From positions 1-64,000 of the forward strand of contig CAMYLR010000021.1 of NCBI GenBank assembly GCA_947259315.1: 64,000 nucleotides of DNA. Reading direction: 5' to 3'. The translations under genes were made by a program, and so were the position numbers. The notes under the pieces were generated by a model. That model saw nothing but the letters and a program-made list of their open reading frames with translations, did not search any database and had not been told where the DNA came from. The stretch comes from an uncultured Gemmatimonadales bacterium. GTDB taxonomy: Bacteria; Gemmatimonadota; Gemmatimonadetes; JACCXV01; JAHWKZ01. Positions 4,363-7,252 of the stretch are shown here, one piece after another. How positions within the stretch are numbered: the stretch's first letter is position 1; each line of letters starts with the position of its first letter.

Positions 4363-4926
4363 CTAGTGTGTTTTTCTGCGCACGATCGGTCGTCCCCCGC
4401 GGCGCTCGATCTCCTCGAACCCGGCGTCGTCGAACATCGCGAGGGCGCCTGTGAACATAGCGGCGTTCTCCTTGCGGCCGCGCGAGGCGTCGATCGGATA
4501 CCCCTCGACGTGCACAGCGCCCCTTCGCTTGGCGTATTTGATCGCACCATCGAGCAGCTGGGTCGCCACGCCGGTGCCGCGGTGCCCGCGCTTTATGTAG
4601 AAGCAGACGATCGACCACACCGGCGTGTCGTCAACGGACTTGAGCTTGGGCGAACGCTGGAGTCGACCGAACTGTTCGCGCGGACCCAGCGAGACCCACC
4701 CGACCAGTTCGCCATCGAGATAGCCGAGAAGACCCGGGACTTCTTCGTCGTCGACGAGCTTTTTAAACCGCTTCTTTAGCCTCTTCCCGGCCTCGGCGCT
4801 GAACTCCTTCGAGGTGACCCGCCACCACATGCACCAGCAACCGGAGTAGGCGCCCGACGGGCCAAAGAGCTCGAGCAGATCGTCCCACCGGTCGGGGGTC
4901 AAGGGACGGACTTTGAGCTTGGCCAA
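4363..4926 (-). CDS. GNAT family N-acetyltransferase
   Basis: LVGWVSLGPREQF...VCFYIKRGHRGTGVATQLLDGAIKYAKRRGAVHVEGYP acetyl-CoA binding motif; probable TTG start inside the longer ORF. Confidence 0.8.
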   Translation of the reverse strand: MAKLKVRPLTPDRWDDLLELFGPSGAYSGCWCMWWRVTSKEFSAEAGKRLKKRFKKLVDDEEVPGLLGYLDGELVGWVSLGPREQFGRLQRSPKLKSVDDTPVWSIVCFYIKRGHRGTGVATQLLDGAIKYAKRRGAVHVEGYPIDASRGRKENAAMFTGALAMFDDAGFEEIERRGGRPIVRRKTH

Positions 4927-4931
4927 ATCGG

Positions 4932-5741
4932 CTACGCGGAGTACGTCGGCTTCTCGACGCCCAGCACGCGATCCTTGAGCGGCGGGAAGCTCTCGCGTGC
5001 CTCGCGCACTGCGTCGAGATCGATCTCGGCGCGCAGGATCCCGGGCTTCTCGTCGAGCTCGGCTATCCGTTCGCCCCACGGATCGTAGACCGCGGAATGG
5101 CCGGCGTACGGATACGCCGATTGCTTGCCGGCCGCATTGCACGCCGCCAGCGCAGCCTGGTTCTCGATCGCGCGCGCCTGGAGCAACGTCCGCCACGCGT
5201 CGACTCGCGGGTAGGGCCACGCGGAGACGATCAAGAGCAGCTCGGCGCCCTTGTCGACTTGCTGTCGGTAGATCTCCGGGAACCGCAGGTCGTAGCAAAT
5301 CGTGAGTCCGATATTGGCGCCCAGCGCCTCGAACGTGACCACGTCGTGGCCGGCGCTGAGCACGTCGGCCTCGCGCGCTTCTTGATACGAGAAGAGATGG
5401 ACCTTGCGATAGGTGGCCAACCGCTTGCCGTCGGGGTCGTAGACCAGCGCGGTGTTGTACAGCTTATCGCCGTCCCGTTCGACGATTGATCCCGCGACCA
5501 ATACGACACCCGCTTCTTTGGCCAGCGCCAACATCGCTTCACCGATCGGACCGTCGACAGATTGTCCGATCTCCGCGTAGTGATCGAAGTCGAACCACCC
5601 CCTCAACCACATCTCGGGGAGCAACACGACATCGGCTCCTTCACGGGCCTCTTCACGCACCATCTTGATTGTGCGCGCGATGCGTTCGTCGGTCGTCTCG
5701 TCGACGCCAACGTCGAGTTGTATGGCGGAGACGCGGACCAT
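4932..5741 (-). CDS. Carbon-nitrogen hydrolase (nitrilase/omega-amidase family)
   Basis: VVLLPEMWLRGW, KVHLFSYQEA, GLTICYDLRFPE: E-K-C catalytic triad contexts. Confidence 0.92.
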   Translation of the reverse strand: MVRVSAIQLDVGVDETTDERIARTIKMVREEAREGADVVLLPEMWLRGWFDFDHYAEIGQSVDGPIGEAMLALAKEAGVVLVAGSIVERDGDKLYNTALVYDPDGKRLATYRKVHLFSYQEAREADVLSAGHDVVTFEALGANIGLTICYDLRFPEIYRQQVDKGAELLLIVSAWPYPRVDAWRTLLQARAIENQAALAACNAAGKQSAYPYAGHSAVYDPWGERIAELDEKPGILRAEIDLDAVREARESFPPLKDRVLGVEKPTYSA

Positions 5742-5754
5742 GTCGTCCACGAAG

Positions 5755-6453
5755 CTAATCCGAAAACAACGAGGGCGTGCCCTCCAGCGACAGCAACCGC
5801 CGCTTGTAGCTGATACCGCCGCCGTATCCACCGAGCGAGCCGTCGGCTCTCACGACCCGGTGGCACGGCACGACGATCGCGACCGGGTTGTGATTGAGCG
5901 CGTTCCCAACCGCACGGGCGGCCTTTGGACTACCGATCCGCCGAGCGACCTCGCTATAAGGAACGACTTCGCCGAACGGGATCGTCTGGACGCACCCGAG
6001 AACGTCTTGCTCGAACCCGCTCAGTCGAGTCAGATCGACCGGCAGCTCGAACCGCGACCGTTCGCCGGCGAAGTATTCGTGGATCTGACGCTCAGTCTGA
6101 GCCAACCGCTCGGTGTCGTGAATCGCCGGCCGTTCCGGGTACAACGACGCGAGGTGGCGGACAAACGTTTCCGAGTCAGGCTGCTGCCAAGACACCCGCG
6201 ACAACCCAGTATCGGTTGCGGCAACGTTCATCGCTCCGAACGGAGTTTCGAATTGGTGCCAATGAATCGCTTCCTCGGCGCTGCACGACTGCAGACCCCC
6301 TAGCAATGACGTGTATTCGGTGGCCTGATCGCGACACCGGCGACACTCACCCAAGTGTTCCGCCAGAGCCAGGCTCGACTTCGGATCCATGTCTCCGATC
6401 ACGAACGCCAGCACCTGCTCTTCGGAAACGTCGCGGCACGGCTCACGCTTCAT
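5755..6453 (-). CDS. Fusion of zf-HC2 anti-sigma-type zinc finger with O6-alkylguanine-DNA alkyltransferase (Ogt/MGMT)
   Basis: N-term CRDVSEEQVLAFVIGDMDPKSSLALAEHLGECRRC (HxxxCxxC); C-term FGEVVPYSEVARRIGSPKAARAVGNALNHNPVAIVVPCHRVVRADGSLGGYGGG (PCHRV active site). Confidence 0.93.
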   Translation of the reverse strand: MKREPCRDVSEEQVLAFVIGDMDPKSSLALAEHLGECRRCRDQATEYTSLLGGLQSCSAEEAIHWHQFETPFGAMNVAATDTGLSRVSWQQPDSETFVRHLASLYPERPAIHDTERLAQTERQIHEYFAGERSRFELPVDLTRLSGFEQDVLGCVQTIPFGEVVPYSEVARRIGSPKAARAVGNALNHNPVAIVVPCHRVVRADGSLGGYGGGISYKRRLLSLEGTPSLFSD

Positions 6454-7007
6454 CGCTCCACCTCTTCCTCCCAGATGTCCAATAGACTCTCACGTAATCT
6501 CTTCACCCCATAGTGAACGTTGGCTCGAGCGCTTTCCGTGGACGATTCCAATCGCTCCGCGATCGTCGGGTAGTCGAGACCTTCCGCCCAGCGCAACCAC
6601 ACCGCCTCGCGTTGCTTTGTCGGGAGCTTGGCGCACTGCTCTCGCACCCGGGCCCGCGTCGCTTCGTCGAGGCCCCGGAAGCCGGCATCGGGCGGTTGTT
6701 GATCACCCGCGGCCGCTCCGGGATCGATACCCTGCAGCGCGCGTCGACTGAACCGTTTGCGGGCGAGGCTGTCCAGGGCGGCGTTTGTCGCCACTCGATA
6801 GAGCCACGCCCGCACGTTCGATCCGGGTCCGTCATCGGGCGGCTTCTCGACCGCCGAGACCCACACCTGCTGCAAGATGTCTTCGGCGTCGTCATCGTTG
6901 CCCGTCATCCGTCCGAGATGTCGCCGTAGCTCCGGTCCGTACCGCCCGACCCATCCCTCCACGCGGTCCTGCGAGGCGCGACTCAATACGGTTGGCGCTT
7001 TGCTCAA
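6450..7007 (-). CDS. ECF-type RNA polymerase sigma factor
   Basis: Sigma region 2 (GNDDDAEDILQQVWVSA...VRAWLYRVATNAALD) and region 4 (KLPTKQREAVWLRWAEGLDYPTIAERLESSTESARANVHYGVKRL); TTG start overlapping upstream TGA; ATGA overlap with downstream gene. Confidence 0.92.
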   Translation of the reverse strand: MSKAPTVLSRASQDRVEGWVGRYGPELRRHLGRMTGNDDDAEDILQQVWVSAVEKPPDDGPGSNVRAWLYRVATNAALDSLARKRFSRRALQGIDPGAAAGDQQPPDAGFRGLDEATRARVREQCAKLPTKQREAVWLRWAEGLDYPTIAERLESSTESARANVHYGVKRLRESLLDIWEEEVER

Positions 7008-7129
7008 GCCAGCGGCGCCGGATAGAGCAGCCCGACGATCGGGCCCAGCAGGATGAACGGGAGCAACACGCACGATCCCACCAGGATCCACTCTGCGGTC
7101 TCGGTCCAAGCCCGAATGCGGTGTTTCAT
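7004..7129 (-). CDS. 41-aa putative single-TM peptide at head of sigma/anti-sigma operon
   Basis: MKHRIRAWTETAEWILVGSCVLLPFILLGPIVGLLYPAPLA*, read directly from reverse complement; absent from ORF track (too short); stop overlaps sigma start. Confidence 0.6.
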   Translation of the reverse strand: MKHRIRAWTETAEWILVGSCVLLPFILLGPIVGLLYPAPLA

Positions 7130-7212
7130 GTCTGCCTCTCTAGTGCTTGTGAACTCGTCAGCTAGTTTTTGTCGTTCTGCTACCCGTATAACGACTGGCG
7201 TGCGCAGACATA

Positions 7213-7252
7213 AAAAGCAGACGGTCCTGCGAGAAAACCCTCACAGGACCGC
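7213..7252 (-). terminator. Intrinsic terminator after the 7279-7803 gene
   Basis: Minus strand CGGTCCTG-N14-CAGGACCG stem followed by TCTGCTTTTT. Confidence 0.6.

Follow-up and report, generated by a model that had tools for sequence, protein, structure and literature searches.

Here we describe a sigma-ogt module in an uncultured Gemmatimonadales bacterium, whose anatomy, conservation, and nearly operon-specific promoter are directly observed, and in which an ECF sigma factor gene overlaps a gene encoding an O6-alkylguanine-DNA alkyltransferase (Ogt) fused to a ZAS anti-sigma domain. We lean towards reading the module as a sigma/anti-sigma switch that regulates itself, whose anti-sigma factor would be the repair protein and in which alkylation of Cys197 would free the sigma factor. 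The whole stretch of DNA analysed, positions 1 to 64,000 (64,000 nucleotides) of contig CAMYLR010000021.1, is referred to below as the window.

Part of this arrangement has precedent. With reference to Casas-Pastor 2021, a review of 2022 (PMC8999054) gives 6-O-methylguanine DNA methyltransferase neighbours for group ECF122, with an example from Cellulomonas, lists the mechanism of the group as unknown, and files it among groups without an anti-sigma factor. The window operon resembles ECF122, compared by description only, in pairing an ECF sigma factor with a conserved neighbour of this kind, and a 6-O-methylguanine DNA methyltransferase gene does adjoin the sigma gene at the window locus. Because the review already gives the sigma-methyltransferase neighbourhood for ECF122, we treat that neighbourhood as prior art. 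The window differs in its ZAS-Ogt fusion, of which the review makes no mention. A preliminary description of this DNA knew of no characterisation of the arrangement; neither the ZAS-Ogt fusion nor an anti-sigma role of Ogt was found in the literature searched (Casas-Pastor 2021 itself lay outside it). The word sigma is absent from a 2023 review of alkyltransferases (PMC10779285).

Operon organization

The operon reads, on the minus strand, from a 41-aa membrane-peptide ORF through the ECF sigma gene to the 232-aa ZAS-Ogt fusion (Table 1).

Table 1. Features of the sigma-ogt operon and its flanks in the window
Feature	Position	Strand	Remarks
Candidate sigma-dependent promoter, TTTTAT-N16-CGTTATACGGGT	7182..7215	-	CGTTATACGGGT common to homologous operons
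41-aa single-span membrane-peptide ORF	7004..7129	-	Stop overlaps sigma start (TTGA)
ECF sigma factor gene	6450..7007	-	185 aa, TTG start; sigma2 and sigma4, DAED motif, without extra domain
ZAS/zf-HC2 anti-sigma domain, fusion residues 1-65	6259..6453	-	Putative zinc ligands C6, H33, C37, C40
O6-alkylguanine-DNA alkyltransferase part, fusion residues 66-232	5755..6258	-	R180, N189, PCHR 196-199, E224 intact
Carbon-nitrogen hydrolase gene (nitrilase family)	4932..5744	-	Directly 3' of fusion; a GNAT gene comes next

The sigma ORF (7007-6450) is intact and its product matches the Pfam families Sigma70_r2 (58 bits) and Sigma70_r4_2 (33 bits); it has only the sigma2 and sigma4 regions and carries the core-binding DAED-type motif, as expected of an ECF sigma factor. 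The fusion ORF (6453-5755) begins with ATG, encodes 232 aa, and overlaps the sigma ORF by ATGA. The two reading frames and the Pfam domains of their products thus confirm the preliminary description of an ECF sigma gene overlapping a zf-HC2-Ogt fusion, including the zinc-finger residues H33, C37, and C40 exactly as first given.

The membrane-peptide ORF (7129-7004) is kept in G072, G027, and G030 with a [LV]P-hydrophobic-[GA] core; the peptide is conserved in three families (listed as f1, f9, and genus g20) and is absent from genus g5. Nitrilase-family and GNAT genes (4363-5744) come immediately after the fusion and accompany it within the genus only. The nitrilase gene is probably co-transcribed with the fusion, and is not counted in the core module because it is conserved solely within the same genus; outside the genus, no other window neighbour stays beside the sigma-fusion pair. 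The sole other Ogt-like match in the genome, L002 (G000:C8:38710-38961), comprises a C-terminal Ogt domain alone in a 140-aa open frame, and is possibly an alkyltransferase-like protein.

Conservation of the fusion

The preliminary description had called for a search for zf-HC2 and Ogt architectures beside ECF genes, and would have been refuted had the fusion been confined to this contig. Among 400 Gemmatimonadota genomes searched, the fusion was found in 21, hence in 20 beyond that of the window, together with the sigma gene and the 4-nt overlap. Full-length homologs, 46-82% identical where measured, occur in genera g1, g5, g20, g40, and g45, all of one Gemmatimonadota class, and every fusion examined has an ECF sigma gene directly upstream that overlaps it by 4 nt. 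Genus g5 also contains two related Ogts (L023 and L026) without an adjoining sigma gene. Among the matches listed from the genome collection, the named records with a ZAS-Ogt fusion are Gemmatimonadota. Four-base overlaps are frequent in operons generally; the arrangement seen here is beyond chance, given that 20 other genomes repeat the architecture, the sigma gene, and an overlap of exactly 4 nt.

Anti-sigma domain and alkyltransferase active site

In Pfam, the zf-HC2 match of the fusion scores 19.1, slightly under the cut-off of 22.2. A profile of 13 N-terminal domains compared against the PDB matched RslA (3hug, E 3.5e-4; we take chain 3hug_B to be RslA) and ChrR (2q1z/2z2s, E 0.003). A low-confidence AlphaFold model of the fusion (mean pLDDT 60), built from 4 sequences, places three helices (residues 11-18, 24-36, and 38-56) before the Ogt fold, and a Foldseek search with this low-confidence model matched Ogts, the top anti-sigma match being ChrR (E 0.036). 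The earlier assignment of the N-terminal module as an anti-sigma (ZAS/ASD) domain is therefore upheld by the profile match and, weakly, by fold. As in ZAS proteins, an HxxxCxxC motif lies in a helical ASD domain, and the gene sits 3' of an ECF sigma gene to which it is coupled. By analogy with these families the domain likely binds and sequesters the sigma factor, and C6 is the probable fourth zinc ligand beside H33, C37, and C40.

The remainder of the fusion matches Methyltransf_1N (38 bits) and DNA_binding_1 (113 bits, including PCHR with C197) in Pfam, and has the PCHR active site, Arg finger, Asn hinge, Glu, and fold of an Ogt; judged by its residues, the alkyltransferase part is complete and catalytically intact. 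Canonical C-H-C-C zinc ligands are retained in 9 of 20 aligned fusions, window included, C6, H33, C37, and C40 being intact in the window and in every fusion outside genus g5. In six g5 fusions the His is gone and an extra Cys has been gained (RCTTC...CPxC), possibly giving a Cys4 zinc site, and in the other five (g5: L042, L046-L049) three or all four ligands are gone and the rest of the domain is kept. C197, H198, R180, N189, and E224 are invariant, including in fusions whose zinc site is lost. Because the ligands vary while C197 does not, what is conserved throughout is the alkyl acceptor and not zinc.

Sigma-ogt pairing in other lineages

Pairing of the two genes extends beyond the fusion. 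When Ogts of other organisms were sampled by similarity, 11 of 77, from Chloroflexota and Actinomycetota, proved to lie behind an ECF sigma gene, in most cases overlapping it in the same way. These sigma-coupled Ogts have N-terminal extensions of ~15-70 aa without a zinc finger, as do those of Gemmatimonadota family f10, and no recognisable anti-sigma domain was found in the sigma-coupled Ogts of any of the three groups; the zinc-finger-less proteins would consequently need another contact with sigma. A predicted model of one of them (mean pLDDT 90) places helices at residues 2-10 and 19-32 before the first Ogt strand, and these two N-terminal helices are a possible sigma contact.

In an Ogt tree, 32 of 33 sigma-linked rows fall into one group of 39 rows, with 7 unlinked rows, and this clustering of sigma-link labels was equalled in 0 of 500 shuffles. 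The remaining linked row, L113, represents a second, actinomycete Ogt lineage; a close relative of this Ogt is present in 49 genomes of a class-wide sample of 297 actinomycetes, and of the 30 best-matching Ogts of the L113 clade, 28 have a coupled sigma gene in front of them. When a Gemmatimonadota sigma profile was searched against 11 non-Gemmatimonadota genomes, the top match was the ogt-linked sigma in eight; in G404, G408, and G409 it was not.

Promoter and predicted regulon

The motif TYTCAC-N16/17-CGTY lies upstream of ogt-linked sigma genes and is common to Gemmatimonadota, Chloroflexota, and Actinomycetota; operons of other genera have the form TTTCAC-N16/17-CGTTnnA, and the -35 half of the window promoter matches the consensus at just 4 of 6 positions. 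Slightly relaxed, the motif precedes 24 of 33 linked sigma genes, where dinucleotide shuffles predict 0.8, against one of 72 unlinked ogt genes; at two more linked loci it lies farther upstream than the 200-bp limit. It also precedes 21 of 28 additional, actinomycete loci; this set is more independent, as some of the loci counted before had served to derive the motif. The sigma factor thus appears to read the promoter of its own operon, as judged from these upstream regions, and the operon is likely autoregulated, which fits a self-replenishing form of the adaptive response suggested in the preliminary description.

The long-form motif has 14 matches in 24 Gemmatimonadota genomes, mostly the promoter of the sigma-ogt operon itself. 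In 31 genomes of a Thermoleophilaceae family the motif has 18 matches, six of which are sigma-ogt promoters. GTTATASGGGT has one copy only elsewhere in the window's genome, inside a tRNA gene. Since exact matches fall mostly on the operon, the predicted regulon would consist mainly of that operon, joined in one lineage by at least one alkylation-repair gene. In a Thermoleophilaceae genome, a second, stand-alone and complete ogt has its ATG only a few bases past a copy of the promoter (L192, G411:C86:2251-2278). Matches L194 and L209 lie upstream of one orthologous gene in two Thermoleophilaceae genomes, a candidate extra regulon member. Four matches were set aside: L068, inside a tRNA gene, as RNA constrained; L188 and L204, inside argH and upstream of an AAG/MPG-like glycosylase gene, as coding constrained; and L070 (TTTCAC-N17-GTTATA), found in the same genus at a contig end, where a dnaE2-like gene has its 3' end, as a probable chance occurrence.

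Distribution of Ada

Neither an Ada_Zn_binding (PF02805) nor an AraC-type HTH domain was matched in the fusion by Pfam, and the former has no match anywhere in the window's genome. Across 101 relatives, Ada_Zn_binding is present in 44, comprising none of the 22 Gemmatimonadota genomes with a sigma-ogt pair versus 44 of the 79 others. The contrast also holds inside families f1, f3, and f9, and at genus level gives a Fisher p of 9e-4, although genera are not fully independent. As a general rule, exclusivity failed in the Actinomycetota, where Ada occurs in 34 of the 49 genomes with the Ogt versus 214 of 297 overall, and it therefore provides no general argument.

Proposed mechanism and alternatives

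Recurrence of the pairing and of its promoter in three phyla suggests that sigma is probably kept bound by the repair protein for as long as the latter has not been consumed in mending alkylated DNA. Unalkylated ZAS-Ogt would be made together with sigma from the overlapping genes, and its ZAS domain would keep sigma inactive. Transfer of an alkyl group from O6-alkylguanine to Cys197 would leave the Ogt spent and destabilised. As alkylated AGTs are destabilised and then degraded (PMC4605297), consumption of the fusion would also remove its anti-sigma function, and anti-sigma protein would be lost in proportion to DNA damage. Freed sigma would then act at TYTCAC-N16/17-CGTY ahead of its own operon, replenishing both proteins until unalkylated Ogt was back in excess. 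That alkylation of Cys197 is the trigger for sigma release we infer with somewhat better than even confidence.

A zinc-thiol switch of the ChrR/RsrA type, in which sigma is freed when oxidants or electrophiles drive out the zinc and the Ogt is only a co-delivered effector, draws on RslA and ChrR being the closest relatives of the ZAS domain, on the intact ligands of the window and every non-g5 fusion, and on the sensing of oxidants by other ZAS anti-sigmas (review PMC8999054). This alternative is a real one for the window itself, but it leaves unexplained the five aligned fusions that lost three or four ligands yet kept gene order and Ogt active site, as well as the sigma-coupled Ogts of other phyla without a zinc finger, and we regard it as unlikely overall. 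The same observations bear on the suggestion in the preliminary description that methylation of a zinc-ligand Cys is the switch: with ligands lost in 5 of 20 fusions, His swapped in six more, the sigma-coupled Ogts of other phyla without a zinc finger, and the Ogt active site with Cys197 kept, it is unlikely to be general. In its Ada-like form, where a ZAS Cys would be methylated by a phosphotriester or a methylating agent and so free sigma, the suggestion has the analogy with Cys38 of Ada (PMC10779285) and the CxxC...CxxC of some g5 fusions, which could hold zinc by four Cys as Ada-N does, but the fusion has no Ada_Zn_binding match, there is no other ground for phosphotriester chemistry, and we hold it to be very improbable.

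It is also conceivable, though quite unlikely, that the Ogt senses nothing and that the overlap only sets stoichiometric co-expression, sigma being controlled otherwise, for example by the membrane peptide or through transcription. The zinc-finger-less Ogts have no known anti-sigma fold, and some genera do have a coupled membrane peptide, both of which would agree with such control; against it, a ZAS domain is fused in 21 genomes, g5 lacks the membrane peptide, and no other window neighbour is conserved beside the pair outside the genus.

Relation to known systems and significance

Like the ZAS anti-sigmas ChrR, RsrA, and RslA, the fusion has an N-terminal HxxxCxxC domain and is encoded 3' of a coupled ECF sigma gene, and as in ChrR (ZAS plus cupin) a second domain is C-terminal; unlike in these proteins, that domain is an alkyltransferase and the zinc ligands are dispensable in one clade. 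Stand-alone Ogt/MGMT proteins share the complete Ogt fold and catalytic residues, but are neither coupled to sigma nor extended N-terminally as the fusion is. In E. coli Ada, as in the proposed switch, a suicide alkyltransferase governs its own synthesis; Ada, however, has the AraC and Ada_Zn domains that the fusion lacks and becomes an activator once methylated at its own zinc domain, whereas the fusion would inhibit sigma when unalkylated.

We give an even chance to the broader proposition of an Ada-independent adaptive response, spanning at least three phyla and explaining ECF122, in which a suicide repair enzyme is the anti-sigma factor and its consumption by damaged DNA derepresses its own replacement. 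If true, damage-proportional gene control would here take its simplest form, with a consumable repair protein that also represses its own synthesis. For ECF122, given in the review with an unknown mechanism, this provides a concrete one, and the ZAS-Ogt fusion makes that mechanism testable, the promoter, sigma, and sensor forming a set small enough to be rebuilt in a laboratory strain. For bacteria without Ada, the module is a candidate adaptive response.
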